Assembly (NCBI GenBank): GCA_014360805.1
Contig: JACIWU010000031.1
Location: 1-34,560 of the forward strand
Origin: Chloroflexota bacterium
Lineage (GTDB): Bacteria > Chloroflexota > Anaerolineae > DTLA01
Reading direction: 5' to 3'
Length of the DNA stretch: 34,560 nt
Positions 10,807 through 26,987 of this stretch are shown here, piece by piece. Under the pieces are notes generated by a model. The model worked only from the letters and a program-made list of their open reading frames with translations, was not told the DNA's origin and searched no databases. Position numbers and translations under genes: made by a program. Each line of letters starts with the position of its first letter. Within the stretch, counting starts at the first letter, position 1.

Positions 10807-10815
10807 TGGTATAAT
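10807..10815 (+). promoter_or_regulatory. Extended -10 promoter of the second two-component system
   Basis: TGGTATAAT, a perfect -10 hexamer with the TGN extension. No -35 is found at the right distance (TTGACG at 10764 is 40 bases away). A start near 10822 gives a leader of about 19 bases. Confidence 0.7.
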
Positions 10816-10840
10816 ATCGCCAGGCTTGGAACGCGGAGCG

Positions 10841-12112
10841 ATGCCCGTGCCTGGGATGAAGGAATGGCTTGGCAAGCAGAGGCTGGACGCGTCCATTAGG
10901 CCCGTCCTCTGGCTGCGATGGGCGGCTATTGCCCTCGCGGCCACTGTTGCGGTGCTCACGTCTGCACCGTCCTGGCCATTGCTGTTGGCAGTGGGCTACA
11001 ATGCCCTGGTGGACCTGTGGCAGCGGTTCTCCCCTCGCCTGCGAAGCCCTATGCTCTGGCTGGTGCCTGATGTGCTGGTCTTCGGCCGATTCGCCTACGA
11101 GACGGGCGATCTCCTCGGCCCGGGCTACTTGCTGTTCGTCGCCTCCGCAGCCTGGGCGGTGGTGGCCGACTCATCCCTTCAAGGCTGGCTCATCGGGCTT
11201 GTACTGGGCCTCGGGTATGATGTGGCGATTTTGCTGGCGATTCGGGCGTTTCCCGAAGCGGCGTCACTGGGCGGGTGGCTTGCGCTCGCGCTGGGCCTTT
11301 CGCTGGTGGGCGCGCTGTCGGCTGCTCTTGGCCGTCTGCTCCGTGCGGAACAGCAGCAGGTGCTCCAACAGGGCAAGGTGGCCGAGGAACTACGGACGCT
11401 GGAGCAACTTAAGAGCGATTTTCTGTCCACCGTGTCCCACGAGTTCCGAACCCCGCTCACGGCCATCAAGGTCTCCGTGGGCTTGTTGGCCGACAAACTG
11501 GGTGGCTCGGATGGGGAAGAGCAGCGCCTGATGAGCACCATCCTTCGCAATGTGGACAGGCTCAACCAGATGGTCGGCGGGGTGCTGGAAATGGCGCGAC
11601 TGCAGAGCGGCAAAGTCATCCTGCAGAAACGCTCCGTGGATGTGTGTCAGGTGGTTCGCGAGATCGCCGTCTCGCTCCAGCCGCTCATGGACGAGAAAGA
11701 TCAGTTGTTCACGCTTCGCCTGCCGGAGACGCCCGTCTTCCTGATGGCCGACGCGAACCGCCTGGAGCAAATCCTGAGCAACCTTCTTTCCAACGCACAG
11801 CGCTACACGCCCTGCGGAGGTGAGATTGCCGTGGAGGTGCGCGAGTTGGGCAACTGGGTTCGCATCTACGTCTCCGATACAGGCCCTGGCATCCCCTACA
11901 ACGAACTCCCCCACATCTTTGACCGCTTCTTCCGGGGCCAGGTGGGGCGCAAGGCGGGGCCTGGGACAGGGCTGGGGCTGTCCATCGCGCGGTCGCTGGC
12001 GCGGCTCCACGGCGGCGATGTGGGGGTCAGCACCAAGCCGGGTGAGGGCTGCGTTTTCTTTGTTACGTTGCCAAAAGGGGAGGCTGCGGGTGAAATTCCT
12101 GGTGGTGGATGA
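10841..12112 (+). CDS. Membrane histidine kinase with a multi-helix N-terminal sensor
   Basis: A 423-residue kinase from the ATG at 10841. The N-terminal ~165 residues hold about five to six hydrophobic helices with very short loops, so the signal is probably sensed within the membrane. A coiled-coil linker (LLRAEQQQVLQQGKVAEELRTLEQL) leads into HisKA with phospho-acceptor His200 in FLSTVSHEFRTPLTAIK. The HATPase domain has N-box NLLSNAQRY (314-322), G1 DTGPGI (346-351) and G2 GTGLGL (375-380). GGAG at 10835 is close to the ATG; an ATG at 10856 is an alternative. The promoter at 10807 rules out the longer upstream frame. It overlaps the next gene by 23 bases, so the two are a pair. The signal is unknown, and there is no sign that it belongs to the Pho system. 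Confidence 0.9.
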   Translation: MPVPGMKEWLGKQRLDASIRPVLWLRWAAIALAATVAVLTSAPSWPLLLAVGYNALVDLWQRFSPRLRSPMLWLVPDVLVFGRFAYETGDLLGPGYLLFVASAAWAVVADSSLQGWLIGLVLGLGYDVAILLAIRAFPEAASLGGWLALALGLSLVGALSAALGRLLRAEQQQVLQQGKVAEELRTLEQLKSDFLSTVSHEFRTPLTAIKVSVGLLADKLGGSDGEEQRLMSTILRNVDRLNQMVGGVLEMARLQSGKVILQKRSVDVCQVVREIAVSLQPLMDEKDQLFTLRLPETPVFLMADANRLEQILSNLLSNAQRYTPCGGEIAVEVRELGNWVRIYVSDTGPGIPYNELPHIFDRFFRGQVGRKAGPGTGLGLSIARSLARLHGGDVGVSTKPGEGCVFFVTLPKGEAAGEIPGGG

Positions 12113-12782
12113 TGAAGCGGATGTCGTGGAGGTGGTGTCTGTAACCCTCAAGATGCAGTGGGGGGACGAGGGGCAGGTCATCGCTGCGTACACGGGGGAG
12201 GAGGCGGTGTCGCTGGCGCTCTCGGAGCGGCCGGACTTGATCATCCTGGACATCGCCTTGCCGGACGTGGATGGGTTTGAGGTGTGCCGCAGGATTCGCG
12301 AATTCTCCGACGTGCCGATTCTGATGCTCACCGCCAAGGACGACGAGATGGACAAGGTGCGCGGGTTGGAACTCGGCGCGGACGACTACATTACCAAGCC
12401 TTTCGGGCACCTGGAGTTGATGGCCCGGATTCGGGCTGTGCTGCGCCGAGTTCAAATACCGCTCACTCCCGCTGGCGGCGCGCGGATCATTATCGGCGCT
12501 GTTGTGCTGGACTTGAATCGCCGCGAGGTGGAGGTGGATGGCCACCCGGTTCGGCTGACCCCGACCGAATTCAATCTTCTCCAGCAACTTATGCGCAATG
12601 CCGGCAAGGTGCTGCCCCATGAGACGTTGCTGGCCCGCGTGTGGGGGCCGGAGTACAGGCGCGAAATTGACTACCTGAAAGTGTACATCCGCCGCTTGCG
12701 TGAGAAACTGGAGCCAGACCCCCAGAATCCCGAGTACATCCTGACCGAGTACGGGATTGGCTACTGGTTTCGCAGTCCGTAG
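12090..12782 (+). CDS. OmpR/PhoB-family response regulator
   Basis: A 230-residue partner of the kinase upstream. The receiver domain has the acidic pair Asp7-Asp8, phospho-acceptor Asp54 in ILDIALPDVDGFEV, MLTAKDDE and YITKPFG. The winged-helix domain covers about 130-228 (LTPTEFNLLQQLMRNAGKV, then IDYLKVYIRRLREKLE). I chose the GTG at 12090 because it gives the normal KFLVVDDE N-terminus and has AGGGGAGG at 12076-12083. Longer frames start inside the kinase gene and give meaningless residues. Its target genes are unknown. The B12/opine cluster starts 185 bases downstream, in the same direction, but behind its own promoter. Confidence 0.9.
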   Translation: MKFLVVDDEADVVEVVSVTLKMQWGDEGQVIAAYTGEEAVSLALSERPDLIILDIALPDVDGFEVCRRIREFSDVPILMLTAKDDEMDKVRGLELGADDYITKPFGHLELMARIRAVLRRVQIPLTPAGGARIIIGAVVLDLNRREVEVDGHPVRLTPTEFNLLQQLMRNAGKVLPHETLLARVWGPEYRREIDYLKVYIRRLREKLEPDPQNPEYILTEYGIGYWFRSP

Positions 12783-12967: not shown

Positions 12968-13279
12968 ATGCGACTGGTTGCCGCGATGGTTCAGGATGCA
13001 GATGCGGATGATCTCCTGAATGCGCTCGTGGAGCATGGGTTCCGTGCGACGCGGATTGAGACGACGGGTGGGTTCCTGCGCGGCTCCAACAGTCTGATCC
13101 TCATCGGCGTGCCCATCCCCCAGGTGGAAGATGTCCTTGACGTGATCCGCCATCATTGCCGCACCCGCACCCAGATCGTTACCCCTGCCGATGCGCCGTT
13201 CCTGAATGGCGAAATGGAGGTGGAAATCGGCGGGGCTATTGTCTTCGTGTGGGAGATCACCCGCTTTGAGCGCCTATGA
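12968..13279 (+). CDS. darA: Cyclic-di-AMP receptor of the DarA (YaaQ, PII-like) family
   Basis: A 103-residue PII-like signalling protein. It matches the DarA/PstA(YaaQ) family along its whole length: MRLVAAMVQD at the first strand, TTGGFL at 32-37 in the nucleotide-binding loop, then a LILIGVP strand and the final EVEIGGAIVFVWEITRFERL. The usual family sequence GGFLxxGN is varied here to GGFLRGSN. Members form trimers that bind c-di-AMP between subunits and change loop conformation to act on unknown partners. GGAGG at 12954-12958 precedes the ATG. The stop overlaps the next ATG by four bases, so this sensor is translationally coupled to the GlmL-like gene. It may report c-di-AMP levels to the cluster; that is inference. 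Confidence 0.88.
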   Translation: MRLVAAMVQDADADDLLNALVEHGFRATRIETTGGFLRGSNSLILIGVPIPQVEDVLDVIRHHCRTRTQIVTPADAPFLNGEMEVEIGGAIVFVWEITRFERL

Positions 13280-14730
13280 TTGGTAGCACTCTGCATCCGA
13301 AAGTGCACCCGCACGCGCAAGCAGCCGCGCTGGAGTATCCTGCGCTCACCATTGACCTGGGGAGCACGTACACCAAGGTCGCCGTGATAGACCTGGCCAA
13401 GCCCAGGTTGATGGCGAGGGTGCAGGCCGTTACCACGGCGGAACATGACATAACCGTGGGGCTGAAGAACGCATTAGCGCAACTTCCCGGGGACTGGGGC
13501 ATCCGCGCTGTGGAGTTCCCGGTGCGGTTGGCGTGCTCCAGTGCGCGGGGCGGGTTGCGCGTGGTGGCGATCGGGCTGGTGCCAGAACTGACGGCGGAGG
13601 CGGCGCGGCGGGCCGCGTTGGGGGCGGGCGCTCGGGTCATGAAGGCGTATTCGCACCATTTGACCCTGGAGGAACTCGCCGAGGTCGTTCGCATGGAGCC
13701 TGACATCATCCTCCTGTGCGGCGGCACGGATGGCGGAAACCAGGAGGTGGTTTTACATAACGCGAAAATGCTTGCCCATTCGTCTGTGCGTGCGCCTATT
13801 GTGTTCGCGGGCAACAAACATGCTGCCGACGAGGCGCGCGCCCTGTTGGAGGGCCGGGGCAAGGAGGTCTTCGTTACCGAAAATGTCATGCCCGCGCTGG
13901 GCGAACTGAACGTGGAGCCGGCACGCCAGACCATCCGAGAGGTCTTCATGCGGAAGATCGTGGATGGGAAGGGCTTGCGAAACGTGGAGTCGTTCGTCCA
14001 ATGTGTCGCGATGCCGACGCCGGAGGCGGTTCTGCGGGCGGCCAGATTGCTGGCGAAGGGCACCAAATCTCGAGAGGGGTTGGGAGAACTGATGGTGGTG
14101 GATGTGGGCGGGGCCACAACGGACGTGCACTCCATCGCAGCAGGGGAGCCGACCATGCGCACCGTGGTTCAGCGTGGGCTGCCCGAGCCTTATGCGAAGC
14201 GGACCGTGGAAGGCGACCTGGGGCTGCGGGTCAGCGCGGCGTCGCTCTTGGAGTCCGTCGGCGAACGCCGCCTTGCCCAGGAAGCGGGCCTTCCCGATAA
14301 GAACGTGGTAACCATCGTGGAGAAATTGCCCCGCGACATCGGCTGGGTGGCCCATGATGAGACCGAGTGGGCGCTGGACGAGGGTATGGCCCAGGCCGCG
14401 GTTCGGCTGTCGGTGGAGAGGCACGTCGGCTACCTCAAAGAGATGTACCTGCCTGCGGGCTACTGCTACATTCAGATTGGGAAAGACCTGACGGGTGTGC
14501 GTCATCTCGTGGGGACGGGCGGCGTGTTTACCTACGGGAAGCACCCTTTCCGCATCCTGCGCGCCGGCCTTTACGATCCGCGAAATCCGCTGTCACTGAA
14601 GCCCAAGTCCCCTCGCCTTTGGATAGATAAGCCTTATATCCTGTGGGCGGTGGGCCTGCTGTCCGAAGTGAATCCCGACGCTGCGTTTGATCTCGGCGTC
14701 GCCAGTCTGCAAGCAGAGGAGGGAACATGA
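13276..14730 (+). CDS. glmL: GlmL/MutL-family ASKHA ATPase (accessory protein of a B12-dependent mutase)
   Basis: A 484-residue protein of the GlmL (MutL) family, whose founding member lies between the two glutamate mutase subunit genes in Clostridium and is thought to protect or reactivate the B12 enzyme. ASKHA-fold motifs are visible: phosphate-1 loop TIDLGSTYTKVAVIDL (25-40), phosphate-2 loop VVDVGGATTDVHSI (about 273-286) and an adenosine-loop-like GTGGVFTYG (about 412-420). The family segment DIILLCGGTDGGNQEVVLHNAKML is intact. The start overlaps darA by four bases (ATGA), and its end overlaps the next gene by four bases. A B12-type mutase three genes downstream supports the role. This is unrelated to the mismatch repair MutL. 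Confidence 0.9.
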   Translation: MIGSTLHPKVHPHAQAAALEYPALTIDLGSTYTKVAVIDLAKPRLMARVQAVTTAEHDITVGLKNALAQLPGDWGIRAVEFPVRLACSSARGGLRVVAIGLVPELTAEAARRAALGAGARVMKAYSHHLTLEELAEVVRMEPDIILLCGGTDGGNQEVVLHNAKMLAHSSVRAPIVFAGNKHAADEARALLEGRGKEVFVTENVMPALGELNVEPARQTIREVFMRKIVDGKGLRNVESFVQCVAMPTPEAVLRAARLLAKGTKSREGLGELMVVDVGGATTDVHSIAAGEPTMRTVVQRGLPEPYAKRTVEGDLGLRVSAASLLESVGERRLAQEAGLPDKNVVTIVEKLPRDIGWVAHDETEWALDEGMAQAAVRLSVERHVGYLKEMYLPAGYCYIQIGKDLTGVRHLVGTGGVFTYGKHPFRILRAGLYDPRNPLSLKPKSPRLWIDKPYILWAVGLLSEVNPDAAFDLGVASLQAEEGT

Positions 14731-15821
14731 CAAGCCCGGTCAAGGTTGCGATTGTCGGTGGAGGCAATGGTGCCCACGCCATGGCGGGGCATCTGGCCCT
14801 GAAGGGCCACACGGTTCGGCTGTACAGCGCCTTTCCCCAGGAGGTTCGCGCGATGCAGGAGGCCGGCGGCGTCTTCGTGGAAGGCGCGGTAGAGGGTTTC
14901 GGCCGGCTGGATGTCGTTTCAGCGGACCCGGCGTCGGTCATTCCCTGGGCCGAGGTGATCATGGTAGTGGTGCCGGCGTTTGCGCATCGGCCTCTGGCCG
15001 AGAGCCTTGCCCCGCACCTGCGCGACGGGCAAGTGCTGTTGCTCAATCCCGGGAGGACGGGCGGGGCGCTGGAGGTGGCGGCCGTGCTGAAACGTCTGGG
15101 GGTGCGGGCCGATGTGGTTGTCGGCGAGGCGCAGACCCTTATCTATGCGTGCCGCATCTCCGGGCCTGCGCGGGTGCGGGTGCTGGGCCTCAAGCGGGCC
15201 GTGCCCGTGGCGGCGCTGCCGGCGACCCAAACCGAGCGACTTCTGTCCCAGGTTACGCGGCTCTTCCCGGAGTTTTGCGCCGCGCAGAATGTGCTGGAAA
15301 CCAGCCTGGACAACATCGGCGCGGTCTTCCATCCCGCCACGATGGTGCTGAACGCCAACCGAATTGAAGCCGGCAACGACTTTGACTTCTACCAGGGGAT
15401 GACGCCCATGGTTACCAAGACGCTGGAGGCTGTGGATGCCGAGCGAATTGCCGTGGCGCAGGCATATGGCGTCGCCACCGAGTCCGCCGCCGACTGGCTC
15501 CTCAAGGCGTATGACGGGGTCCGAGGCGATACGCTGTACGAGCGTATCCAGAGCAACCGCGCCTACGCGGGCATCAAGGCCCCCAAGTCGCTGAACGTGC
15601 GCTATATCACCGAGGATGTGCCCACGGGGCTGGTCCCCATCGCGGCTTTTGGCAAGGCGGCGGGCATCCCCATGCGGACGTGCGAGGGCATCATTGACCT
15701 GTGCTGCACGCTGTTGGGGCGGGACTTCTGGGCCGAGGGGCGGAATCTGGAGAACCTGGGACTCGCCGGCATGGATCGGGAGGCCATCCTTCGCTACGTC
15801 AACGAGGGGGCGGGGGCCTGA
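14727..15821 (+). CDS. NAD(P)-dependent octopine/nopaline dehydrogenase family enzyme (paralog 1)
   Basis: A 364-residue enzyme of the opine dehydrogenase fold. Such enzymes reversibly join an amino acid's amino group to a 2-keto acid with NAD(P)H. The Rossmann domain begins VAIVGGGNGAHAMAGHLA (GGGNGAHA at 11-18) and includes MVVVPAFAH and LLNPGRTGGALE. The C-terminal helical domain carries VLETSLDNIGAVFHPATMVLNANRIE; His202 here is the likely counterpart of the catalytic His of octopine dehydrogenase. The start overlaps glmL by four bases. The next gene is a close paralog. Substrate is unknown. In this cluster the enzyme may run in the oxidative direction, releasing an amino acid for the downstream mutase. 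Confidence 0.87.
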   Translation: MTSPVKVAIVGGGNGAHAMAGHLALKGHTVRLYSAFPQEVRAMQEAGGVFVEGAVEGFGRLDVVSADPASVIPWAEVIMVVVPAFAHRPLAESLAPHLRDGQVLLLNPGRTGGALEVAAVLKRLGVRADVVVGEAQTLIYACRISGPARVRVLGLKRAVPVAALPATQTERLLSQVTRLFPEFCAAQNVLETSLDNIGAVFHPATMVLNANRIEAGNDFDFYQGMTPMVTKTLEAVDAERIAVAQAYGVATESAADWLLKAYDGVRGDTLYERIQSNRAYAGIKAPKSLNVRYITEDVPTGLVPIAAFGKAAGIPMRTCEGIIDLCCTLLGRDFWAEGRNLENLGLAGMDREAILRYVNEGAGA

Positions 15822-15839
15822 TCGGAGGCGCATATCCCG

Positions 15840-16934
15840 ATGGACACGAGCAGGCCACGAATTCTGGTCATCGGCGCGGGACACGGCGGGAAGGCGATGG
15901 CCGCCGACCTGGCCATCAGGGGGTTCCCCGTGCGCCTGTATAACCGGACGTACTCACGGATTGAGATGATCGCCCTGCGCGGGGGAATAGACCTGGAGTT
16001 TGAGGACGGGCGCTCGGAGTTTGGCCCGCTTGAGATGGTTGCATCCGACCTGGGCATGGCGCTGGAGGGCGTGAACCTGATCATGGTTGTGGTGCCTGCA
16101 TCGGCCCACGCGGACATCGCGGCCCAGTGTGCGCCGTTCTTGGAAAGCGGCCAGGTCATCATCCTGAACCCTGGGCGAACGGGCGGCGCGCTGGAGTTCC
16201 GTCGCGTGTTGGCCGAGAAGGGCTGCCGCGCCTCCGTGGTCGTCGCCGAGGCGCAGACGTTTGTGCTCTCAAGCCGCTCCACGGGGCCTGCGGAGGCGCA
16301 CCTGTTCCGCTCCAAGATTACCGTGCCGCTGGCGGCGCTCCCCTCTACGGACACGCCACGGGCCTTGGAGTTGGCCAGAGCCGCGTATCCCCAATTCATC
16401 CCGGCGCGCAATGTGCTGGAGACCAGCCTGGACAATATGGGAGCGGTGATGCATCCGTCGCTGATGATCCTGAACGCCGGGCGCATTGAGGCCACCCGAG
16501 GCGAATTTCAGTTCTACATTGACGGGGCAACGCCCGGGGTGGCAACTGTCCTGGAGCAGGTGGACGAGGAGCGGGTGGCGGTGGCCCGCGCGCTTCAGGT
16601 GCGGGCGCGGTCGGCTCTGGAATGGCTGCGCGCGGCCTATGCGTCGGTGGGCGACGACCTGTTCCACGCTATACAAGGCACGCCCACGTACAGGGGGGTG
16701 GCGGCCCCGCGCTCGCTGATGCATCGGTACCTCTTTGAGGACGTGCCCATGAGCCTGGTGCCCATCGCGACCATCGGGGCGCATTACGGCGTGGAAACGC
16801 CGACCATCCGCGCGGTGATCCAACTCGCGTGCGTCCTGCATCGCAAAGACTATCTCGCCTTGGGCCGCACCCCTGCGCGCCTGGGCATTGAGAACATGAG
16901 CGTGGAGCAGTTGACACGCTACGTGGAAGGATGA
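15840..16934 (+). CDS. NAD(P)-dependent octopine/nopaline dehydrogenase family enzyme (paralog 2)
   Basis: Also 364 residues, and clearly homologous to the previous gene throughout. Shared blocks include MVVVPA-x-AH, NPGRTGGALE, V-x-EAQT, VLETSLDN(I/M)GAV-x-HP and N-x-RIEA. Its NAD-binding turn differs: VIGAGHGGKAMAADLA (GAGHGG at 12-17) in place of GGGNGAHA. The likely catalytic His is His205. GGAGG at 15824-15828 precedes the ATG at 15840. The tandem arrangement suggests duplication followed by a split in cofactor or substrate preference, or two subunits of one enzyme. Like its twin it lies between the mutase chaperone and the mutase, so it should act in the same pathway. Confidence 0.86.
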   Translation: MDTSRPRILVIGAGHGGKAMAADLAIRGFPVRLYNRTYSRIEMIALRGGIDLEFEDGRSEFGPLEMVASDLGMALEGVNLIMVVVPASAHADIAAQCAPFLESGQVIILNPGRTGGALEFRRVLAEKGCRASVVVAEAQTFVLSSRSTGPAEAHLFRSKITVPLAALPSTDTPRALELARAAYPQFIPARNVLETSLDNMGAVMHPSLMILNAGRIEATRGEFQFYIDGATPGVATVLEQVDEERVAVARALQVRARSALEWLRAAYASVGDDLFHAIQGTPTYRGVAAPRSLMHRYLFEDVPMSLVPIATIGAHYGVETPTIRAVIQLACVLHRKDYLALGRTPARLGIENMSVEQLTRYVEG

Positions 16935-16979
16935 TAGTAACGCGATACCGAAACCAGAGAATTGCATGAAGGAGGAATC

Positions 16980-18623
16980 ATGGCAGAGAAGACGATACTG
17001 GGCGGCTCACTAGGGGAGTGCGTTCACGTCGCCGGCGTTCTGAACTTTCTGCGCATCGCCGAGGAGCAGGGATACAGGACCGAGTTTACGGGGCCGGCGA
17101 CATCCATCGCCGAGTTCGTGGCGGCGGCCCAGGAGGTTGACCCGGACATCCTGGCCATCAGTTACCGCCTGACACCCGAGAACGCCCGAACCCTGCTCCG
17201 CGACCTGTGGCAGGCCTGCGAGGAGGCCGGGCTGACGCACAAACGGTTCGTATTTGGCGGAACGCCGCCGGTGGCCGCCGTCGCCCGCGAGGCGGGGTAC
17301 TTTGAGGCGGTGTTCAGCGGCGAGCAGCCGGTGGAGGCGGTGATCGCCTACCTGCGCGGGCAGCGGTTTGAGGAGATGACTGCCGCCGACTTCCCCGACG
17401 AGACCATGGCGCGCATCCGCTGGAAGGCGCCCTTCCCCATCATCCGCCACCACTTTGGCCTTCCGGCCGAGACCATTGAGCCGACGGTGGAGGGCATCAG
17501 GAAAATCTCCGAGGCCGGCGTGCTGGATGTGATCTCCCTCGGCCCCGATCAGGACGCGCAGGAGAACTTCTTCCACCCCGAGCGCCAGAACCCCAAGCGC
17601 AAGGGCGCGGGCGGGGTGCCATTCCGTACCGAAGAGGACCTCATTCGCCTGTACGAGGCGTCGCGCTGCGGGAACTATCCCCTCATGCGTTCCTACTCGG
17701 GCACGTCGGATCTGCTGGAGTACGCCGAGGTGCTCTGGCGCACCATCCGTAACGCCTGGTGCGCCACCTCGCTCTTCTGGTTCAATGTGGTGGATGGGCG
17801 CGGCCCGTTGAGCCTGCGCGACTCCATCCGCGATCACATGCTGCTCATGAAGTGGCATGGCGAGCGGGGAATCCCCGTGGAGGGCAACGAGCCGTACCAT
17901 TGGGGCCTGCGCGATGGGCATGACGCCGTAGTGTGCGCGGTCTCGTACATCTACGCCCACGTCGCCAAGGCCATGGGCGTGCGCGATTACATCAGCACGT
18001 ACATGTTTGAGACGCCGCCGAACACATCCAACAAGATGGACCTGGCCAAGGCGCTGGCCCAGATTGAACTGGCCGAAAGCCAGCAGGATGCCCACTTCAA
18101 CGTCGTTCGCCAGACCCGCACCGGGCTGATGAGTTATCCGGTGGATATGGACTACGCCAAGGGGCATTTGGGGTCTTCGGTGTACCTGCAAATGGCCCTC
18201 AAGCCCTCCATTGTGCATGTGGTCGGATATTGCGAGGCCAATCACGCCGCCACGCCCGAAGATGTCATTGAGAGTTGCAAAATGGCGCGGCAGGTCATCC
18301 AGACGGCGCTGGCGGGCCAGCCCGACATGACCGCCGATCCCGAAGTCCAGCGCCGCAAAGATGAACTCGTGCGCGAGGCTATGGTCATCGTGGACGCTGT
18401 GCGGCAACTGGGGAGCGGCGTGGCCGATCCGCTGACCGACGTGGAAGTGCTGGCTCGGGCGGTGGAAATCGGCCTGCTGGACGCGCCCCAACTCAAGGGA
18501 AACCCCCATGCCTGCGGCAAGGTGCGCACGCGCCCGGTCAACGGCGCGATTGTGGCTGTGGATGAAGAGGGGCGGCCTTTGACGGAGTCGGAGCGAATTG
18601 CCAAAATCTTCCAAAGCCTGTAG
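16980..18623 (+). CDS. Probable B12-dependent carbon-skeleton mutase: fused GlmS-like B12 domain and GlmE-like barrel
   Basis: A 547-residue protein. Residues 1-130 fit a B12-binding Rossmann domain like GlmS: LGECVHVAG at the cobalt-ligand loop (His16), then ILAISYRLTPENAR and a FVFGGTPP loop. The usual DxHxxG reads CxHxxG here, with the ligand His and the Gly kept. Residues about 140-547 resemble the glutamate mutase epsilon barrel; the C-terminus AVEIGLLDAP...GKVRTRP...PLTESERI parallels the GlmE end (FETGVMDIP...GKMMPVR...PFTEEI). Glutamate mutase is usually two subunits, so this is a natural fusion with the B12 domain first. I could not confirm the glutamate-binding Arg residues, so the substrate may differ. 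AAGGAGG (16969-16975) sets the start at 16980. With glmL upstream, a 1,2-rearrangement of an amino or carboxylic acid is the likely reaction. Confidence 0.75.
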   Translation: MAEKTILGGSLGECVHVAGVLNFLRIAEEQGYRTEFTGPATSIAEFVAAAQEVDPDILAISYRLTPENARTLLRDLWQACEEAGLTHKRFVFGGTPPVAAVAREAGYFEAVFSGEQPVEAVIAYLRGQRFEEMTAADFPDETMARIRWKAPFPIIRHHFGLPAETIEPTVEGIRKISEAGVLDVISLGPDQDAQENFFHPERQNPKRKGAGGVPFRTEEDLIRLYEASRCGNYPLMRSYSGTSDLLEYAEVLWRTIRNAWCATSLFWFNVVDGRGPLSLRDSIRDHMLLMKWHGERGIPVEGNEPYHWGLRDGHDAVVCAVSYIYAHVAKAMGVRDYISTYMFETPPNTSNKMDLAKALAQIELAESQQDAHFNVVRQTRTGLMSYPVDMDYAKGHLGSSVYLQMALKPSIVHVVGYCEANHAATPEDVIESCKMARQVIQTALAGQPDMTADPEVQRRKDELVREAMVIVDAVRQLGSGVADPLTDVEVLARAVEIGLLDAPQLKGNPHACGKVRTRPVNGAIVAVDEEGRPLTESERIAKIFQSL

Positions 18624-18769: not shown

Positions 18770-20443
18770 ATGGCTAGAGCAAGACTCAAGGTAATCGCGT
18801 CTGTTGCGTTGTTGGCGATGACCCTGCCGCTCATCGCAGCCTGTGGAGGAGCAGGCCCCACACCCACGCCGGAGAAGGTCGTTGTCAAAGAGACGGTTCC
18901 CGTCAAAGAGACCGTGGTCGTGCAGATCACTCCTACGCCCGGGCCCAAGCGGGGCGGCACCCTCATCGTAGGGTTGATGAGCCCCGTGCTCAGCCTGGAC
19001 CCGGCGGACTACCGCGACCGCCAGACCGAGACGGTCATCCGCAACATGTTTGACGGCCTGGTAACCCGCACCAAGGACAACCAGGTGGTGCTGGAGATGG
19101 CGCAATCGGCCACGCTGATTGACCCTCAAACCTGGGAGTTCAAACTCAAAGAGGGGATGACATTCCACAACGGGGACCCGGTAACCGCCGAGGACGTCAA
19201 GTTCACCTTTGACCGCATCATCACGGAAGGCGCCATTGAGTACCCGGAGCCCCACACCGCTGCCCGCAAGGGCCTCATCGCGCCGCTGGAGAGCGTGGAG
19301 GTCGTGGATCCGCTCACCGTGCGCTTCCACCTGAAGGCGCCGTGGCCCGTGTTCATGCAGATGCTGTGCCACCAGCAGATCATCCCCAAGAAGTACTTTG
19401 AGTCGGTGGGCGGCACCAAGGGGTTCATTGAGAAGCCCGTTGGGGCAGGGCCGTTCAAGTTCGTGGAAGGGAAACTGGACGACCAGATCGTGCTGGAGCG
19501 GTACGAGAACTACTACGGCGGCGCCGATGACCTGCCGCCCGTCGGGCCGGCTTTCGCCGACCGGGTGATCTTCAAGATCATCCCCGAGCGGTCGTCCCGC
19601 GTTGCGGCCCTCCAGGCGGGCGAGGTGAACATCATCCAAGGAGTGCCGTCCTACATCGTGCCGCAGTTGCTCAGCGACCCCAGACTGCAGGTGAAGACCT
19701 GCGCCGGGACGCGCCCGCACTTCATGGAAGTCAACGTCAAACAGAAGCCCTTTGACGACGTGCGCGTCCGCCAGGCCCTCAACTACGGCGTCAATGTGGA
19801 CCTCATCCTTGCCAAGATCCTGAGCGGCTACGGCGTGCGCCTGCCGGGCATCCTGTCCCCGTTCAACAACTTCGCAGACCCCAACCTCAAGCCTTATCCG
19901 TTTGATGTGGAGAAGGCGAAAGCCTTGCTGAAAGAGGCGGGTTACGAAAACGGGTTCTCCTTCGTCATTGATGTGAGCGCCGACAACAAGGAACTGGCCG
20001 AGGCCATCGCGGGAGAACTGCGCACCAACCTGGGGCTGGATGTCAGCGTCCGCGTCTGGGACTGGGCCGTGCTGCGGCCGAAGTTGCTGGCCGGGGAGCG
20101 CCAGGCGACCGTCGGCAGTTGGGGCGACTCGGCCTTTGACCCGGTGGGCTACCTGGAGGCAAAGGTGCACACCTACGTTGAGGGCTCCACCTACGGGCGC
20201 GGCAACTACAGCGGGTACAGCAACCCGCGCGTGGACGAACTTATCAAAGCGGGCGAGGTTGAGACCGACGTTGCGAAGCGCCATGAGATCTACAACGAGA
20301 TTCAACGCATCGTCTGGGAAGAAGCGCCCATGGTCTTCCTGTTCGTCCCGCAGGAGATTGAGGCTGCCGCTGCCAATGTGCAGAACTGGAGTCCTTCGCC
20401 CGACAGCCGCATCAACCTCCACGATGTCTGGTTGTCTCAGTAG
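18770..20443 (+). CDS. Peptide-type ABC transporter substrate-binding lipoprotein (SBP family 5, DppA/OppA-like)
   Basis: A 557-residue extracytoplasmic binding protein. The signal peptide ends in the lipobox LIAAC (Cys25), followed by a Thr/Pro/Val linker to about 60. The mature part shows family-5 hallmarks: RGGTLIVGL...SLDPADYRD, WEFKLKEGMTFHNGDPVTAEDVKFTFDR, VGAGPFKFVE, and a C-terminal RVDELIKAGEVETDVAKRHEIYNEIQRIVWEEAPM. Length is normal. AAGGAGG (18757-18763) precedes the ATG. Family 5 proteins bind peptides, but also opines such as nopaline and octopine-type compounds, nickel and sugars, so the ligand cannot be read from sequence. Its place right after two opine-dehydrogenase-family genes makes an N-substituted amino acid attractive. 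A strong stem-loop follows the gene. Confidence 0.92.
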   Translation: MARARLKVIASVALLAMTLPLIAACGGAGPTPTPEKVVVKETVPVKETVVVQITPTPGPKRGGTLIVGLMSPVLSLDPADYRDRQTETVIRNMFDGLVTRTKDNQVVLEMAQSATLIDPQTWEFKLKEGMTFHNGDPVTAEDVKFTFDRIITEGAIEYPEPHTAARKGLIAPLESVEVVDPLTVRFHLKAPWPVFMQMLCHQQIIPKKYFESVGGTKGFIEKPVGAGPFKFVEGKLDDQIVLERYENYYGGADDLPPVGPAFADRVIFKIIPERSSRVAALQAGEVNIIQGVPSYIVPQLLSDPRLQVKTCAGTRPHFMEVNVKQKPFDDVRVRQALNYGVNVDLILAKILSGYGVRLPGILSPFNNFADPNLKPYPFDVEKAKALLKEAGYENGFSFVIDVSADNKELAEAIAGELRTNLGLDVSVRVWDWAVLRPKLLAGERQATVGSWGDSAFDPVGYLEAKVHTYVEGSTYGRGNYSGYSNPRVDELIKAGEVETDVAKRHEIYNEIQRIVWEEAPMVFLFVPQEIEAAAANVQNWSPSPDSRINLHDVWLSQ

Positions 20444-20492: not shown

Positions 20493-20513
20493 CCGCAATG
20501 GTGAGGCGTGCCG

Positions 20514-21524
20514 ATGCGAGGCGTCAAAATCCTTGAACGATTGCTATACACAATTCCCATCATGTTCGGCGTGGCGGTGTTGGTGTTCTTGTTTATGCGC
20601 ATGACGCCGGGCGATCCTGTGGATATCATGATGGGTGAGGCGGGCACCATTGCCCCAGGCGAGATGGAGCAACTTCGGAAGGAGTTCCATCTGGACGAAC
20701 CGCTGCACGTTCAGTTGTACCTGTTTCTCTCCAACGCGTTGCGCGGCGATTTGGGCTACTCCTACGCGTACAAGAAGCCGGTTACGGAACTCATCGCGGA
20801 GCAACTCCCGGCAACCATAGAACTGGCATTGGGCGCGCTTCTGTTTTCGTTGATCATCGCTGTGCCGATCGGCATCTGGTCGGCGGTGAAACAGTATTCC
20901 ATCGTGGACCGTGTGAGCATGGCCGGCGCTTTTTTGGGCGTTTCCATGCCCGCTTTCTGGCTTGGCATTCTTCTTATCTTGATTTTCTCGGTGAGACTGC
21001 GGTGGCTGCCCGTAACGGGGCGCATTGACTACAACGCCGGGCTTCAGGTGGTAACAGGGTTCTACGTGGTGGATAGCATTCTCACCCATAACACAGCGGC
21101 GCTGGTGTCATCGCTGAAGCATCTGCTCCTACCGTCCATCGCCCTCGGCGCAGGTGCGGCGGCGATGGTGGCCCGCGTGCTTCGTTCTAGCATGATAGAG
21201 GCCCTTCGGCAGGACTACGTAACCCTGGCACGGGCCAAGGGGGTGCGCGAAACGTGGGTGGTGCTGAAGCATGCGCTGCGCAACGCCCTCATCCCCACGG
21301 TAACGGTGGTGGGGATTCAGGTGGGCGTGCTCCTGGGCGGCAACATGATCGTGGAGCAAGTCTTCAGTTGGCCCGGCCTGGGCAGGTTGGCCGTGCGCGC
21401 CATTTTCTCGCGTGACTTCCCGCTGGTCCAGGGCGTGGTCATGGTGTACGCCCTGACGTTCGTGCTGGCGAACCTCATCGTGGACATCCTGTACACCTAT
21501 ATCAATCCGAAGATCACCCTGTAG
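20514..21524 (+). CDS. Peptide-type ABC transporter permease, DppB-like
   Basis: A 336-residue inner-membrane subunit with six predicted helices. It has the DppB-type N-terminus (ILERLLYTIPIMFGVAVLVFLFMRMTPGDPV), the LRKEFHLDEPLHVQLYLFL segment, LRGDLGYSYAYKKPV, and the ABC-coupling loop EALRQDYVTLARAKGVRETWVVLKHALRNALIPTV shortened here to its key parts: DYV-x-LARAKG and HALRNALIP. GGTGAGG at 20500-20506 favours the ATG at 20514 over the GTG at 20508. It pairs with the DppC-like permease 13 bases downstream. Confidence 0.93.
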   Translation: MRGVKILERLLYTIPIMFGVAVLVFLFMRMTPGDPVDIMMGEAGTIAPGEMEQLRKEFHLDEPLHVQLYLFLSNALRGDLGYSYAYKKPVTELIAEQLPATIELALGALLFSLIIAVPIGIWSAVKQYSIVDRVSMAGAFLGVSMPAFWLGILLILIFSVRLRWLPVTGRIDYNAGLQVVTGFYVVDSILTHNTAALVSSLKHLLLPSIALGAGAAAMVARVLRSSMIEALRQDYVTLARAKGVRETWVVLKHALRNALIPTVTVVGIQVGVLLGGNMIVEQVFSWPGLGRLAVRAIFSRDFPLVQGVVMVYALTFVLANLIVDILYTYINPKITL

Positions 21525-21537
21525 CAGGGGGAAGGCC

Positions 21538-22458
21538 ATGCAGACCACACAAACCGCAATGCCCTGGTGGTATCCGCTGACCATCCGACTGCGGATTTGG
21601 GCCGCGAATGCCGCGGGGTTCTTCCGCGACCTAGCTGGCCACCCCATTGCCCTAGCGGGTGGGCTGGTGGTGGTCTTATACGTCGCGATGGCCATTTTTG
21701 CGCCGCAGATCGCGCCGCATGACCCCACCAAAGGGGAGTTAATACGCCGACTTGAGCCGCCAGTGTGGGCCGGGGGAACCATGGACTACTGGCTCGGCAC
21801 GGATGCCCAGGGGCGCGACCTGTGGTCTCGCATCGTCTTCGGGAGCCGCATTTCGCTCTGGGTGGGGTTCGTATCCGTGGTCATCTCGGCGGTCGTGGGC
21901 GTGCTTCTGGGATGCCTGGCGGGGTACTTCCGGGGCGCGCTGGACGAGGTACTGTCGCGTTTCTCGGACCTGTTGCTGGCGTTCCCCTACTTGATCTTCG
22001 CCATCGCCGTGATGGCGTTCATGGGGCCGGGGATGACGAACCTGCTCCTGGCCCTGACGTTCAAAGGCTGGGTGGAGTTCTACCGTCTTGCGCGCGGGGA
22101 GATGCTCTCGGAGAAGACGAAGGAGTACGTTCCGGCGGCTGTGGCCGTGGGCATGGGCGACCTGCGCATTATCGTCTCCGAGGTGTTGCCCAACATCTTC
22201 CACTCGGTGCTGGTTCTCGCCACGCTGCGCCTTGGCGTCATGATCGTCATGGAAGCAAGTCTCAGTTTCCTCGGCCTGGGCATTCAGCCGCCCACGCCCG
22301 CTTGGGGGTCTATGGTGTCGGAGGGGCGCGACTACCTGACTACGTCCTGGTGGGTGTCCACGATACCCGGCCTGGCCATTCTCGTCTTGGTGCTGGCGAT
22401 CAACGTTTTCGGCGAAGGGTTGCGCGACATCCTGGACCCGCGACTGAAGATTGAATAA
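21538..22458 (+). CDS. Peptide-type ABC transporter permease, DppC-like
   Basis: A 306-residue second membrane subunit. It has a cytoplasmic N-terminus, a first helix at about 36-58, the DppC family motif HWLGTD-like DYWLGTDAQGRDLWSRIVFG, YFRGALDEVLSRFSDLLLAFP, a coupling loop around LSEKTKEYVPAAVAVGMGD and VLPNIFHSVLVLATL, and EASLSFLGLGIQPPTPAWGSM near the end. All are standard for the DppC/OppC subfamily, and the length is normal. GGGGGAAGG lies just before the ATG. It ends 9 bases before the first ATPase gene. Confidence 0.93.
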   Translation: MQTTQTAMPWWYPLTIRLRIWAANAAGFFRDLAGHPIALAGGLVVVLYVAMAIFAPQIAPHDPTKGELIRRLEPPVWAGGTMDYWLGTDAQGRDLWSRIVFGSRISLWVGFVSVVISAVVGVLLGCLAGYFRGALDEVLSRFSDLLLAFPYLIFAIAVMAFMGPGMTNLLLALTFKGWVEFYRLARGEMLSEKTKEYVPAAVAVGMGDLRIIVSEVLPNIFHSVLVLATLRLGVMIVMEASLSFLGLGIQPPTPAWGSMVSEGRDYLTTSWWVSTIPGLAILVLVLAINVFGEGLRDILDPRLKIE

Positions 22459-22467
22459 GAGGGCACG

Positions 22468-23478
22468 ATGGCACAATCACAGCCATTGTTGGAGATTCGG
22501 CATCTTACGACGGTTTTCCCGACCCGCAGAGGGGTGGTGCGCGCGGTGTCGGGCCTGGACCTAACGTTGGCCCGCGGGGAATTGCTGGGCCTCGTGGGCG
22601 AGTCGGGCTGCGGGAAAAGCGTGTCCATGCTCTCCATCTTGCGCCTGGTGTCGCATCCGGGCAGGATTGTAGCGGGTGAGATTCTGCTGGAAGGCCAGAA
22701 TCTGTTGAAACTCCCGATGCACGCCATGAGGCAAATCCGCGGTCGGCAGATCAGCATGATTTTCCAGGACCCCATGACGACTCTGAATCCGGCGTTCCGC
22801 GTGGGCGACCAGATCGCCGAGGCGCTGCGCATTCATGGGATGCTCAACGGCTCCGGCCCGTCGCTGTGGCCCTTTGGCAGGGCGCGGGCCGAAGCCGAGC
22901 GGAAGCGCGTGGTGGAGTTGCTGGACGAGGTGGGCATTGCCGTTCCGTGGGAGGCCCGCAAGCGCTATCCGCACGAGTTCAGCGGGGGGATGCAGCAGCG
23001 CGCCCTCATCGCCATTGCCGTTTCGTGCAAGCCGAAGATACTCCTCGCGGATGAGCCTACTACCGCCCTGGATGTTACCATTCAGGCGCAGATTATGGAT
23101 TTGCTGCGGAGGCTCAACCAGGAGTACGGCACAAGCGTCGTTCTGGTTACGCACAATCTGGCGTTGGCTGCCACGTTCTGCCAGAATATCGCCGTCATGT
23201 ACGCCGGGCGGTTGATGGAAAAGGGGCCTACCGACGCGGTGATTGAAGATCCGAAGCACCCGTATACCCGTGGCCTGTTGGAATGCATTCCCAAGATCGG
23301 CGCGACACGCGAGCCGCTGCAACCGATTCCAGGGAACGTCCCAGACCTGGCCGAACTTCCGCCGGGATGCGCCTTCCACCCTCGGTGCGGACACGCGCAG
23401 GAGGCTTGCCAGGAGGGTGAGGTGCCACTGGTTACGCTGCCAGACGGCCGCCAGGTGCGGTGTCTGCTTTACGTCTAG
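22468..23478 (+). CDS. Peptide-type ABC transporter ATP-binding protein, DppD-like
   Basis: A 336-residue ATPase. Visible motifs: Walker [11 protein letters not shown] at about 47-56 (the family's usual Ser/Thr pair), Q-loop MIFQDPMTTLNPAFRVGDQI, signature FSGGMQQR, Walker B ILLADEPTTALDVTIQAQ and switch His in VTHNLALA. The C-terminal oligopeptide/dipeptide transporter extension with PGNVPDLAELPPGCAFHPRC and further Cys residues is present; in this family those Cys can hold an iron-sulfur cluster. Immediately followed by its partner ATPase, 11 bases away. Confidence 0.93.
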   Translation: MAQSQPLLEIRHLTTVFPTRRGVVRAVSGLDLTLARGELLGLVGESGCGKSVSMLSILRLVSHPGRIVAGEILLEGQNLLKLPMHAMRQIRGRQISMIFQDPMTTLNPAFRVGDQIAEALRIHGMLNGSGPSLWPFGRARAEAERKRVVELLDEVGIAVPWEARKRYPHEFSGGMQQRALIAIAVSCKPKILLADEPTTALDVTIQAQIMDLLRRLNQEYGTSVVLVTHNLALAATFCQNIAVMYAGRLMEKGPTDAVIEDPKHPYTRGLLECIPKIGATREPLQPIPGNVPDLAELPPGCAFHPRCGHAQEACQEGEVPLVTLPDGRQVRCLLYV

Positions 23479-23489
23479 AGGCGAGTGCG

Positions 23490-24545
23490 ATGCAAACTCT
23501 TTTGGAAAAGAACAACATGGTGGAGGATGTGGGGCCAGCGCCGCCCCAGCCGCTTATCTCTGCAATGGGGATTCGCAAGTACTTCTACATCCGCCCCAGC
23601 CTGTTGGCGCGCGTTCTGGCTCGCCGCCGGGTGCAGATTGTCAAGGCCGTGGACAGCGTGGACCTGGTGGTGTACCCGGATGAGACCGTGGGCCTGGCGG
23701 GCGAGTCGGGTTGCGGCAAGACGACGCTGGGACGGGTGCTCACCCGCCTGCACGAGCCGACCGCGGGCCGGATGCTCTTTGAGGGTAAGTTGGTATTCGG
23801 AGAGGATGCTGGTGAGACGACGCCGCGGATGACGGACCGGGAGTTTCGGCGGTCGGCCCAGATTATTTTCCAAAACCCCTATTCTTCCCTCAACCCCCGC
23901 AAAACGGTGCGCGATATCTTGTCGGTCCCACTGCGGGCGCGGGGCGTAACCGGAATGCAGGAGTTGGAGAACGAGATCCTGTACCTGCTGAGCCGGGTGG
24001 GGTTGAGCCGACGCCACATTGACCGCTACCCTCACCAGTTCAGCGGGGGCCAGCGCCAACGCATCGGCATCGCACGCGCCCTTGCCATGCGCCCGAAATT
24101 CGTCGTCGCCGATGAACCTGTCTCCTCGCTGGATGTCTCCATTCAGGCCCAGGTCATCAACCTTCTGAAGGAACTCCAGGCTGAATTTCATCTGACCTAC
24201 TTGTTCGTCGCCCACGATCTCAGCCTTATCTACCATATCAGCGACCGCGTGGCTATCATGTACCTGGGGAAGATCGTGGAGACAGGGCCTACGGACCTGC
24301 TGTTCGCGGAACCTTTGCATCCCTACACTCAGGCGCTTCTGGCCGCAGTGCCCAGGGTGGACAGGGCCACCCGTCGTCAGCGCATCATCCTTGAGGGCAA
24401 CGTGCCCAGCCCGATAGATCCGCCGTCGGGGTGTCGTTTCCATCCGCGTTGCTTTGCTCGCCTGGGCGACATCTGCAAGGAAGAGGAGCCTCCTTTGCGG
24501 GCTGTCGGCCCGAAATACGCCGTGGCTTGCCATCGCTATTCATAA
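23490..24545 (+). CDS. Peptide-type ABC transporter ATP-binding protein, DppF-like
   Basis: A 351-residue second ATPase of the importer. After a non-conserved leader of about 30 residues come [15 protein letters not shown], Walker [11 protein letters not shown]-loop [16 protein letters not shown], signature FSGGQRQRI, Walker [19 protein letters not shown], and switch His in VAHDLSL. The C-terminal extension has [19 protein letters not shown] and a later Cys pair, the DppF/OppF hallmark. I chose the ATG at 23490 because AGAGGCGAG lies just upstream; the longer frame begins inside the DppD-like gene. The C45 hydrolase gene starts 9 bases later. Confidence 0.92.
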
Positions 24546-24554
24546 GAGGAGCCT

Positions 24555-25667
24555 ATGCGAGTTCTCACCCTGGAAGGGACGCCCTACGAGATGGGCTTGC
24601 AGTATGGTGCACTGCCAGGCCCCTTGCGTCAGTTCGTCGTGGCGCGCATCTACCGCCGCCTGCGAAGACTCGTTCCGCACCCGCAGACCGAGGCCTGGTA
24701 CGCAGAGGTGCTGGCCCTGCTTGAACACGAGGCTGAAGGATTCCTTCAGTACGTCCAGGGCCAAACCGATGGCCTGGGGATAGAGCGCGACGTGCTCCTG
24801 CGGTTCTCGCTGGCGTCGTACCTGGAGGACCGCGCGCAGGCTTCCGCTGCGGTTGCGGAAGGATGCACGGCCTGGGCCGCGCGCCCCGACTGGACGGAAA
24901 CGGGGCAGCCGCTCTTGGCGAAGAACCGCGACCAGAACCTGGAACAACTGGGGCTGCAATGCGTCGTCCGCGCGAGGCCCACGAGCGGATACCCGTACGT
25001 GGGTGTTACCGCCCTAGGGTGGCCGGGGTTAGCGTCTTCGGGGCTCAATGCCGCCGGCCTGGCCGTGGCCGACACCCACGTGCCCAGCACCGACCTGGGG
25101 CCTGGCCTGCCGCGCTGGTGGATGATGGTCTGCATCCTGGAGCGCTGCCGGACGGTGGGCGAGGCGCTGGATTACCTGACAGCGGCCCCACGCCTGGGGA
25201 ACGGCAATCTCGTCTTGGCCGACGCCCAAGGCGCTATCGCTGTGTTTGAGGAAGGGCATGCCCATTTTGGCATTCGGACGCCCGAAGATGAGCAGGGGTA
25301 CCTTGTGGCTAGCAATCATTTCGTTACCGACCTGCTGCGGAACCGATGCCGCCTAGAGGGCCTGGGCAAGAAGGGGGATACCCTGGCGCGGAAGGCGCGG
25401 ATGGAGGCGGCGCTTGCCGAGGCGAAGGGTGTTGTGTCGCCCTCGTGGGCGCGGGTGATCATGTCCTCGGCGGATGGGACGGGCGCCCTGTGTTGGCAAG
25501 ACCCGGAGCGGCACTGCGGGACGATTTCCACCGTTATCGTCTCGCCTGCAACCGGCACGATCTGGGTTAGGCATGGGTGGATGTGGCATGGGCGATTCCG
25601 GCGGTTCGTCATGAGCGATTTCCAGTGGGCGAATGGCGCATCGGTGTATCAGGCTGTGAGGGTGTGA
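24555..25667 (+). CDS. C45-family Ntn-hydrolase (acyl-CoA:6-APA acyltransferase-like amidohydrolase)
   Basis: A 370-residue protein of peptidase family C45, which matures by self-cleavage to expose an N-terminal Cys nucleophile. The cleavage site is EGCTAWAA: Gly103-Cys104 would be cut, leaving Cys104 as the catalytic residue. Other family marks are the N-terminal YEMGLQYGALPGP, LAKNRDQN after the nucleophile, GWPGLASSGLNAAGLAV, and SNHFVT. Known relatives hydrolyse or transfer acyl groups on small amides such as penicillins and N-acyl amino acids. It is cytoplasmic (no signal peptide) and directly behind a complete peptide-type importer, so its likely job is to cleave the imported amide. AAGAGGAG precedes the ATG. 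Confidence 0.87.
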   Translation: MRVLTLEGTPYEMGLQYGALPGPLRQFVVARIYRRLRRLVPHPQTEAWYAEVLALLEHEAEGFLQYVQGQTDGLGIERDVLLRFSLASYLEDRAQASAAVAEGCTAWAARPDWTETGQPLLAKNRDQNLEQLGLQCVVRARPTSGYPYVGVTALGWPGLASSGLNAAGLAVADTHVPSTDLGPGLPRWWMMVCILERCRTVGEALDYLTAAPRLGNGNLVLADAQGAIAVFEEGHAHFGIRTPEDEQGYLVASNHFVTDLLRNRCRLEGLGKKGDTLARKARMEAALAEAKGVVSPSWARVIMSSADGTGALCWQDPERHCGTISTVIVSPATGTIWVRHGWMWHGRFRRFVMSDFQWANGASVYQAVRV

Positions 25668-25682
25668 GGAGTGAACACGCAG

Positions 25683-26690
25683 ATGGAGAAAGTCCTTGTT
25701 ACGGGCGGCACCGGCTTCTTGGGCGTCCACCTGGTTCGCGCCCTGGTCCAGCGTCATTACAATGTGCGTGTCCTGACGCGGGATCCTGCAAGAATGCACG
25801 GTCAGACCCATCTTCCTGTGGAGACTGTGGTGGGAGATGTTACCTCGCCGCAGGACGTGCGCAGGGCCGTTGAGGGATGCCTGGGCGTTTTCCATCTTGC
25901 GGCCAAGGTTACGCTCAGCGCCAAGGAGGCCGATGAAGTCTTCGCGGTCAATGTAGAGGGCACGCGCAACGTGATGGAGGCTGTCCTGGAGGCGGGCGTG
26001 CGGCGCGTGGTACATGTGAGCACCATCGGGACGCTGGAAGGGCCCTCGGAGGACAGCGTGGTGGATGAGACATGTCCGTTGCGCACCTCGGATGTGGGGA
26101 CGCCGTACCTGGATTCCAAGGTGCGGGCGGAGAGGGTGGTGCTTGACATAATTGAGCGGGGCCTTCCTGCGCTTATCGTGAATCCAGGGGGGATGATCGG
26201 CCCAGAAGATAATTTCCATTCGCCCTCGTCGGCGCTGCTCAAGTTGTTCTTCCATCGGATCAACCCATTTGTCGTGGCGTGGCGGTTGAATCTGGCAGAT
26301 GTGCGGGATGTGGCGGATGGCCTCGTGCAGGTCTACCGCAACGGGCGGCTGGGAGAGCGCTATATCCTGGGAGGGGAAAACACCGACACGATTACGGTGT
26401 TCCGGCATTTGCGAGAGATTACGGATTTCAACAGAGCGATCTGGCCGCTGGCCTGGGAGACACTTGAGATGGTCTCGGAACTGTCGGCCCTCCTCTCGCA
26501 GCCGCTGGTGGAGAAGAGCGTTGCCGCGTTCTATCACTACGCCTTCTGGGCATCCAGCGAGAAAGCCGAGCGCGAACTGGGCTACAAGCACCGCACGCTG
26601 GGGGAGACCCTCGCCGACGCCGCGGCCTGGTACGAAGCGACGTTCCTGAAGCCGCAACCGTGGGCGTCCTCTTATCTCGCGGGCGAGTAG
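25683..26690 (+). CDS. NAD(P)-dependent extended SDR (epimerase/dihydroflavonol-reductase-like)
   Basis: A 335-residue extended short-chain dehydrogenase. The cofactor loop TGGTGFLG is at 7-14, the HLAAKV strand follows at about 82, VVHVSTIGTL gives the active-site Ser/Thr, and the catalytic pair is Tyr142/Lys146 in YLDSK. NPGGMIGPED is the usual post-catalytic segment. The layout is closest to the NAD-dependent epimerase / dihydroflavonol-4-reductase / HpnA-like group, and the substrate cannot be read from sequence. The ATG at 25683 has AGGAG 11 bases upstream; GTG at 25671 would overlap that site. It is the last gene of the importer operon, 15 bases after the C45 gene. Confidence 0.87.
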   Translation: MEKVLVTGGTGFLGVHLVRALVQRHYNVRVLTRDPARMHGQTHLPVETVVGDVTSPQDVRRAVEGCLGVFHLAAKVTLSAKEADEVFAVNVEGTRNVMEAVLEAGVRRVVHVSTIGTLEGPSEDSVVDETCPLRTSDVGTPYLDSKVRAERVVLDIIERGLPALIVNPGGMIGPEDNFHSPSSALLKLFFHRINPFVVAWRLNLADVRDVADGLVQVYRNGRLGERYILGGENTDTITVFRHLREITDFNRAIWPLAWETLEMVSELSALLSQPLVEKSVAAFYHYAFWASSEKAERELGYKHRTLGETLADAAAWYEATFLKPQPWASSYLAGE

Positions 26691-26905: not shown

Positions 26906-26953
26906 GGGCGATGAGGCTCGCCCTTGATCGCCGTCTGGCTGATAGCCTCTACG
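26906..26953 (+). promoter_or_regulatory. Fluoride riboswitch aptamer (crcB motif)
   Basis: The RNA GGGCGAUGAGGCUCGCCC then UUGAU, CGCC-GUCU-GGC, UGAU and AGCCUCUAC matches the crystallised Thermotoga petrophila fluoride aptamer almost base for base. Pairings: GGGCG 26906-26910 with CGCCC 26919-26923; GAGGCU 26913-26918 with AGCCUC 26944-26949; and a 3-bp GCC/GGC hairpin (26930-26939). The conserved GAUG, CUGAU and CUAC elements are all present. Fluoride (with Mg2+) should stabilise this fold and block the overlapping terminator, turning expression on. Next gene: MutS-family remnant; crcB-motif RNAs upstream of mutS-type genes have been reported. Confidence 0.96.
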
Positions 26954-26987
26954 GAGGAGCGTGTTCTTCGTAGAGGCTTTTTTCTTT
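26944..26987 (+). terminator. Riboswitch-controlled intrinsic terminator
   Basis: AGCCTCTACG (26944-26953) pairs with CGTAGAGGCT (26969-26978); with wobble pairs the stem extends to about 14-15 bp around loop GCGTG. It ends in a T-rich run from 26978. Its left arm is the same AGCCUCUAC that the aptamer needs, so aptamer and terminator exclude each other. Confidence 0.95.

Follow-up and report, generated by a model that had tools for sequence, protein, structure and literature searches.

A putative single-chain B12 mutase related in fold to glutamate mutase and encoded beside opine-dehydrogenase-family enzymes in Chloroflexota and other bacteria

The window analysed here is a 34,560-nucleotide stretch of contig JACIWU010000031.1 from a Chloroflexota bacterium of the class Anaerolineae. 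It carries genes for a DarA-like receptor, a GlmL protein, two paralogous enzymes of the octopine/nopaline dehydrogenase family (ODH1 and ODH2; ODH in general) and a protein, here called MUT, which unites a B12-binding domain and a GlmE-like barrel in one chain (Table 1). An earlier note on this DNA had described five genes running in one direction with four-base overlaps or short gaps, and its five open reading frames, all on the forward strand, were confirmed in their coordinates and spacing (-4, -4, +18 and +27 bp, in order). For MUT an ATG at 16980, behind GGAGG, is preferred over the TTG at 16962 with which the called frame (16962-18623) begins. The note was right about these five genes and missed what follows them: up to 26690 there are genes for a solute-binding protein, OppB, OppC, OppD and OppF, a C45 hydrolase and an SDR-family enzyme, spaced by -19 to +146 bp, and the transcription unit probably runs past 18623 through all of these to a hairpin near 26,978. 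No Rfam match to a cobalamin riboswitch was found within the window.

Table 1. Genes and features of the MUT locus, in window coordinates.
Feature	Position	Strand	Evidence
DarA-like PII-family c-di-AMP receptor	12968..13279	+	PF06153 2e-29
GlmL, ASKHA ATPase, presumed mutase reactivase/chaperone	13276..14730	+	NF040745, PF13941 4e-167
ODH1, octopine/nopaline-dehydrogenase family NAD(P)-dependent oxidoreductase	14727..15821	+	PF02317 1e-45
ODH2, second octopine-dehydrogenase family enzyme	15840..16934	+	PF02317 2e-45
MUT, single-chain B12-binding domain and GlmE-like TIM barrel, putative adenosylcobalamin-dependent carbon-skeleton mutase	16980..18623	+	PF02310 (B12-binding) 6e-10, PF06368 (GlmE-like) 3e-7
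SBP family 5 solute-binding lipoprotein of importer	18770..20443	+	PF00496 5e-85
OppB, OppC, OppD, OppF-type ABC importer genes	20508..24545	+	Pfam and NCBIfam; gaps -19 to +64 bp
C45/AAT Ntn-hydrolase (autoproteolytic acyltransferase/amidase)	24555..25667	+	NF040521 184 bits, cut-off 85
SDR/epimerase-family NAD-dependent enzyme, final gene of unit	25671..26690	+	PF01370 9e-32; 3 bp past C45 gene
Intrinsic-terminator-like hairpin	26944..26978	+	15-bp stem, 5-nt loop, T tract; pattern match only

Single-sequence searches of the PDB with MUT returned almost no matches, and those of a MUT family profile were confined to the B12 domain. An AlphaFold2 model was built from 36 relatives (pLDDT 88.7, pTM 0.84), and when it was compared with the PDB by Foldseek, GlmE ranked first (6h9e_B, E 2e-16; 1cb7_B, E 6e-16), with ornithine and lysine aminomutases (OraE, KamD) and methylmalonyl-CoA mutase as the next-best folds, while the B12 domain of the model matched GlmS. 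The TM-score with GlmE is a moderate ~0.6 across the two-domain chain, as is to be expected because GlmE has no B12 domain. Profile-profile alignment of MUT with GlmE by hhalign covered the entire barrel (E 7e-11), and the GlmE-type fold proposed in the earlier note is thus upheld. The two elements of a glutamate mutase, a GlmE-type TIM barrel and a GlmS-type B12 domain, are both found in MUT, which, going by the predicted structure, is a homologue of glutamate mutase by fold. In this putative mutase a GlmS-like domain and a GlmE-like barrel would be naturally fused. In nearly all members examined MUT is a single open frame; at locus L040 the frame is split in two. An NCBIfam scan gave MUT a weak GlmS match only, and TIGR01503 selected a different protein of the window genome (G000:C49). 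A relationship to methionine synthase or corrinoid methyltransferases was considered and rejected, as profile matches to such PDB entries span the B12 domain only and the barrel is that of GlmE.

With the glutamate mutase of Clostridium cochlearium (1cb7, 1i9c, 6h9e) MUT shares both folds, the histidine of base-off/His-on cofactor binding and an accessory GlmL; unlike that enzyme it is one chain with the B12 domain first, and it differs at residues that are functional according to the GlmE literature, whose numbering was checked in our alignment. In the profile alignment R66 and R100 of GlmE are replaced by His164 and Gln200 in 87/87 MUT sequences, and the position of E171, which in GlmE contacts the free amino group of glutamate, holds Pro or Ser. 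Y177 has become Asn and K326 Val, R149 is probably kept as Arg243, where the alignment has a one-residue register ambiguity, and the equivalent of the adenosine-contacting E330 is invariant. The lower-ligand His22 and Gly25 of the B12 domain are also invariant, and the canonical D-x-H-x-x-G reads C-x-H-x-x-G, with Asp replaced by Cys in 85 of the 86 readable sequences. A substrate with a substituted or differently placed amino group would be in keeping with the loss of E171 and the altered set of Arg residues. The earlier suggestion of a GlmS/GlmE-like mutase stands for the fold, but the barrel lacks the glutamate-binding residues R66, R100 and E171.

The genomic setting of MUT bears on the same question. 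The window genome has, separately, a genuine GlmE-GlmS-GlmL set adjoining an aspartokinase-like gene (L083, G000:C49). Among 100 sampled genomes of the window's class (MUT threshold E < 1e-50; counts made by hand from tables), MUT was present in 45, of which 42 had no GlmE and 39 no methylaspartate ammonia-lyase. Since the pocket residues are changed, a true GlmSE-GlmL set exists in the same genome and most MUT genomes are without GlmE, MUT, as judged from its sequence, is not glutamate mutase and has a different active site. That it supplies the methylaspartate pathway as a diverged glutamate mutase would be in keeping with its homology and with GlmL, but is very improbable given the invariant changes of R66 to His and R100 to Gln, the Pro or Ser at E171, the genome counts and a partner that is ODH and not methylaspartate ammonia-lyase. 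A replacement of glutamate mutase by MUT was likewise rejected on the pocket residues, the second, genuine GlmSE and the absence of methylaspartate ammonia-lyase from most MUT genomes.

The assignment of the two paralogues to the octopine/nopaline dehydrogenase family, made in the earlier note, is firm (PF02317 at ~1e-45 for both). The best PDB match of each is N-(1-D-carboxyethyl)-L-norvaline dehydrogenase, 1bg6 (8e-84 for ODH1 and 7e-76 for ODH2), to which the family profile aligns with E 5e-108. ODH2 is 46% identical to ODH1 and 52-58% identical to Chloroflexota ODHs, and is of the type that accompanies MUT in most Chloroflexota. In octopine dehydrogenase H212 and D329 are catalytic and R324 binds the amino-acid carboxylate; their equivalents are present in 84/84 (H212), 84/84 (R324) and 80/84 (D329) ODH sequences, ODH1 included, the other four having Glu for D329. 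ODH thus carries PF02317, the catalytic His/Asp and the carboxylate-binding Arg of an opine dehydrogenase, as do 1bg6 and octopine dehydrogenase (3c7a); unlike these enzymes it is the near-obligate genomic partner of a putative B12 mutase.

This partnership holds across the MUT loci. With near-copies of the window removed, 110 loci were counted, 53 of them with at least 2.5 kb on both sides, and in 53/53 an ODH gene lies on the same strand within 4 kb of MUT, so that the linkage in related genomes anticipated by the earlier note does exist. In the 100-genome sample MUT and ODH occur together in 44 genomes, MUT only in one (G267, a truncated MUT match), ODH only in one and neither in 54 (Fisher p 4e-26, a value which overstates independence because the sampled genomes are related). 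The MUT tree spans six phyla, Chloroflexota, Bacillota, Sumerlaeota, Bipolaricaulota, Poribacteria and Armatimonadota; MUT-bearing bacteria are mostly anaerobic and linkage of MUT with ODH is far above chance. As MUT is almost always encoded beside ODH, the two enzymes very probably catalyse successive steps in an amino-acid pathway not yet described. The five-gene unit is linked and conserved, and the full set is found again at L178, but its conserved core is MUT and ODH, to which particular lineages have added GlmL, the second ODH and DarA.

GlmL meets its curated model in the window (NF040745, 604 bits, cut-off 475), in agreement with the earlier reading, and unfused GlmL genes adjoin MUT in the window's genus and in loci from Bacillota and Sumerlaeota. 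When Chloroflexota genomes were searched with a profile, MUT-GlmL fusions came to light in at least seven Anaerolineae genomes (L136-L142), chains of ~1,250 residues with MUT followed by the GlmL domain. The fusion adjoins ODH in L136, L137, L139, L141 and L142, an RpiR regulator in L137, L139, L141 and L142, and an SBP5/Opp importer in L137, L139, L140 and L142; L138 and L140 are near contig ends, and the other end of the G328 fusion (L185) reads RpiR-ODH-MUT. That GlmL is fused to MUT is strong evidence that it serves MUT. Since GlmL is missing from the vicinity of most Anaerolineae MUT loci, it is not obligatory. In a GlmL tree the MUT-linked and GlmSE-linked proteins were for the most part not separated. 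GlmL as a universal partner was considered and dropped: most GlmL-less Anaerolineae genomes encode MutL-family proteins of ~590 aa elsewhere, which were not counted as partners because the inspected loci mostly represent an unrelated conserved cluster with membrane proteins, as seen in L156-L169. At L154 an apparent ornithine-aminomutase-like gene, a GlmL relative and a racemase are consecutive on the contig.

The combination of a B12 enzyme, an NAD dehydrogenase and a reactivase, with a related barrel, is shared with the ornithine 4,5- and lysine 5,6-aminomutase modules; these differ in their dehydrogenase families and in that aminomutases depend on pyridoxal phosphate (PLP). MUT might accordingly act like such an aminomutase in amino-acid fermentation, with ODH oxidising the rearranged amine in the part of 2,4-diaminopentanoate or 3,5-diaminohexanoate dehydrogenase, and no opine involved. 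In favour of this, the ornithine operon also includes a GlmL relative of its own (NF040744), OraE and KamD come next to GlmE among the matching folds, and at one fusion locus (L136:2-2905) a gene resembling ornithine racemase (312 bits, cut-off 480) and a gamma-glutamyltransferase gene stand directly upstream of ODH and the MUT-GlmL fusion. We nevertheless consider this unlikely: the closest fold is GlmE, the annotation of MUT includes no PLP-binding domain of the OraE/KamDE kind, its chain being filled by the B12 and GlmE-like domains, and ODH retains the full opine-dehydrogenase triad with its carboxylate-binding Arg.

Other genes recur at MUT loci less regularly. At L178, in another family, OppC-OppD-OppF, C45, DarA, GlmL, ODH1, ODH2 and MUT lie on one strand in an order different from that of the window, and the MUT is 78% identical to the window's. 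DarA also adjoins MUT in L178, L184, L065, L078 and L134. From the L178 set and the recurrence of DarA it follows that importer, hydrolase and DarA are recurrent partners and not core. The c-di-AMP receptor named in the earlier note is clearly matched by PF06153 but falls below the curated NCBIfam DarA model (97.9 bits, cut-off 140). The SDR gene of the window unit recurs in L003, and a GntR regulator is found at L010 and L012.

Taking these results together, we favour the view, at a probability of roughly 60%, that MUT uses adenosylcobalamin to rearrange the carbon skeleton of a substrate which is not L-glutamate, and that it and ODH act on consecutive intermediates of one pathway. The computed basis of this view is fold, domain order, linkage, co-occurrence, fusion, ODH catalytic residues and the mutase pocket; we infer the use of adenosylcobalamin, mutase activity, the order of the steps, the catabolic direction and the role of DarA. 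NAD(P)-dependent ODH would form or split an N-(carboxyalkyl) amino acid at its C-N bond, or oxidise the corresponding amine, and MUT would rearrange the carbon skeleton before or after, a two-enzyme step being the most economical reading. In the window's lineage the Opp-type importer may take up a peptide- or opine-like solute, from which the C45 hydrolase would strip an acyl or peptidyl group; ODH1, ODH2 and MUT would then oxidise and rearrange the product, with GlmL reactivating MUT at the expense of ATP and DarA perhaps tying pathway activity to c-di-AMP. The pathway is probably catabolic in the window's lineage and at loci with importer and hydrolase, because importer and RpiR genes accompany the fusions and importer and C45 occur in both the window and L178. 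The more specific proposal, that MUT rearranges an opine (an N-(carboxyalkyl) amino acid) or its cleavage product in a B12-dependent opine route coupled to opine dehydrogenase, is tentative; such a route would be widespread in anaerobic Chloroflexota and extend to at least five other phyla. The chemistry suggested earlier, opine cleavage and rearrangement in either order, is compatible with the sequences.

Several observations weigh against this view. Handling of the coenzyme may differ in MUT, given the change of Asp to Cys and of K326 to Val, and a PduO-type adenosyltransferase was found in only 10/20 MUT genomes in a search limited to that family of adenosyltransferases. Most GlmL-less Anaerolineae loci are without an importer, and some carry instead an AsnB-like amidotransferase or a D-Ala-D-Ala-ligase-like ATP-grasp gene, neighbours which fit synthesis better than catabolism. 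In 17/110 loci MUT and ODH have an AsnB-like gene between or next to them, and the ATP-grasp genes adjoin MUT/ODH in L009, L025, L027 and L104. At L035 (3403-5846) a D-glutamate-cyclase-like gene (PF14336, 1e-70) is placed between MUT and an AsnB-like gene in which the first Cys is Ser. These genes, with the ornithine-racemase-like and gamma-glutamyltransferase genes, hint at D-amino acids or glutamyl peptides, and each is confined to some lineages. It has to be asked, then, whether MUT turns a common amino acid into an unusual one, which ODH condenses with a keto acid to an opine-like solute or metallophore, the importer-linked copies being later catabolic recruitments. ODH-family enzymes usually run reductively, which would suit such a biosynthetic pair as the AsnB-like, ATP-grasp and cyclase-like neighbours do. 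We regard it as improbable, somewhat more so than the aminomutase alternative, in the face of importer and hydrolase in the window, L178 and fused loci, and of GntR (L010/L012) and RpiR (at fusions), which suggest induction by substrate.

To our knowledge the known carbon-skeleton mutases that depend on adenosylcobalamin are few, and every one of them has opened a pathway. The MUT family combines an invariant pocket unlike that of glutamate mutase with a near-obligate dehydrogenase partner in at least five phyla beyond the window's. The earlier note knew of no described pathway with this gene set. That still holds, and a combination of glutamate mutase with opine dehydrogenase was not found in the open-licence papers searched, but the pair of ODH and B12 protein is not new, since it was reported in 2009 as an operon of unexplained role. 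In Halothermothrix orenii octopine dehydrogenase and a 'cobalamin B12 binding protein' (Hore_09740/09750) form an operon found also in other thermophilic anaerobes including Roseiflexus, and the B12 protein, with distant similarity to methionine synthase only, was given no function (PMC2626281). Roseiflexus loci L029, L037 and L038 carry MUT-ODH, and the 2009 operon is therefore very likely the same gene pair. That paper does not cover the mutase identity, GlmL, the fusion or the importer and hydrolase context (PMC2626281). What seems new is the identity as a GlmE-type mutase, together with the fusion to GlmL and the setting beside importer and hydrolase genes. In ethanol-adapted Thermoanaerobacter cells an octopine dehydrogenase was found to be up-regulated (PMC3751872). 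The operon left unexplained in 2009 now has a testable identity, and the genes and substrates to be assayed are few.

Some further genes flank the unit in the window. A sensor kinase/response regulator pair (10613-12782) is directly upstream, as it is in L003. Just past the terminator-like hairpin, at 27057-27614, there is an N-terminally truncated MutS-V ATPase resembling KamC (79 bits, cut-off 300), the reactivase ATPase of lysine 5,6-aminomutase; it looks like a gene remnant because stops close the frames upstream. On the reverse strand at 27687-28907 an oxidoreductase resembles the Gfo/Idh/MocA type by sequence reading, the forward strand there having unmatched open reading frames only, and at 28880-31052 two divergent RpiR-family regulators are followed by a PhnU-type permease and an ABC ATPase.

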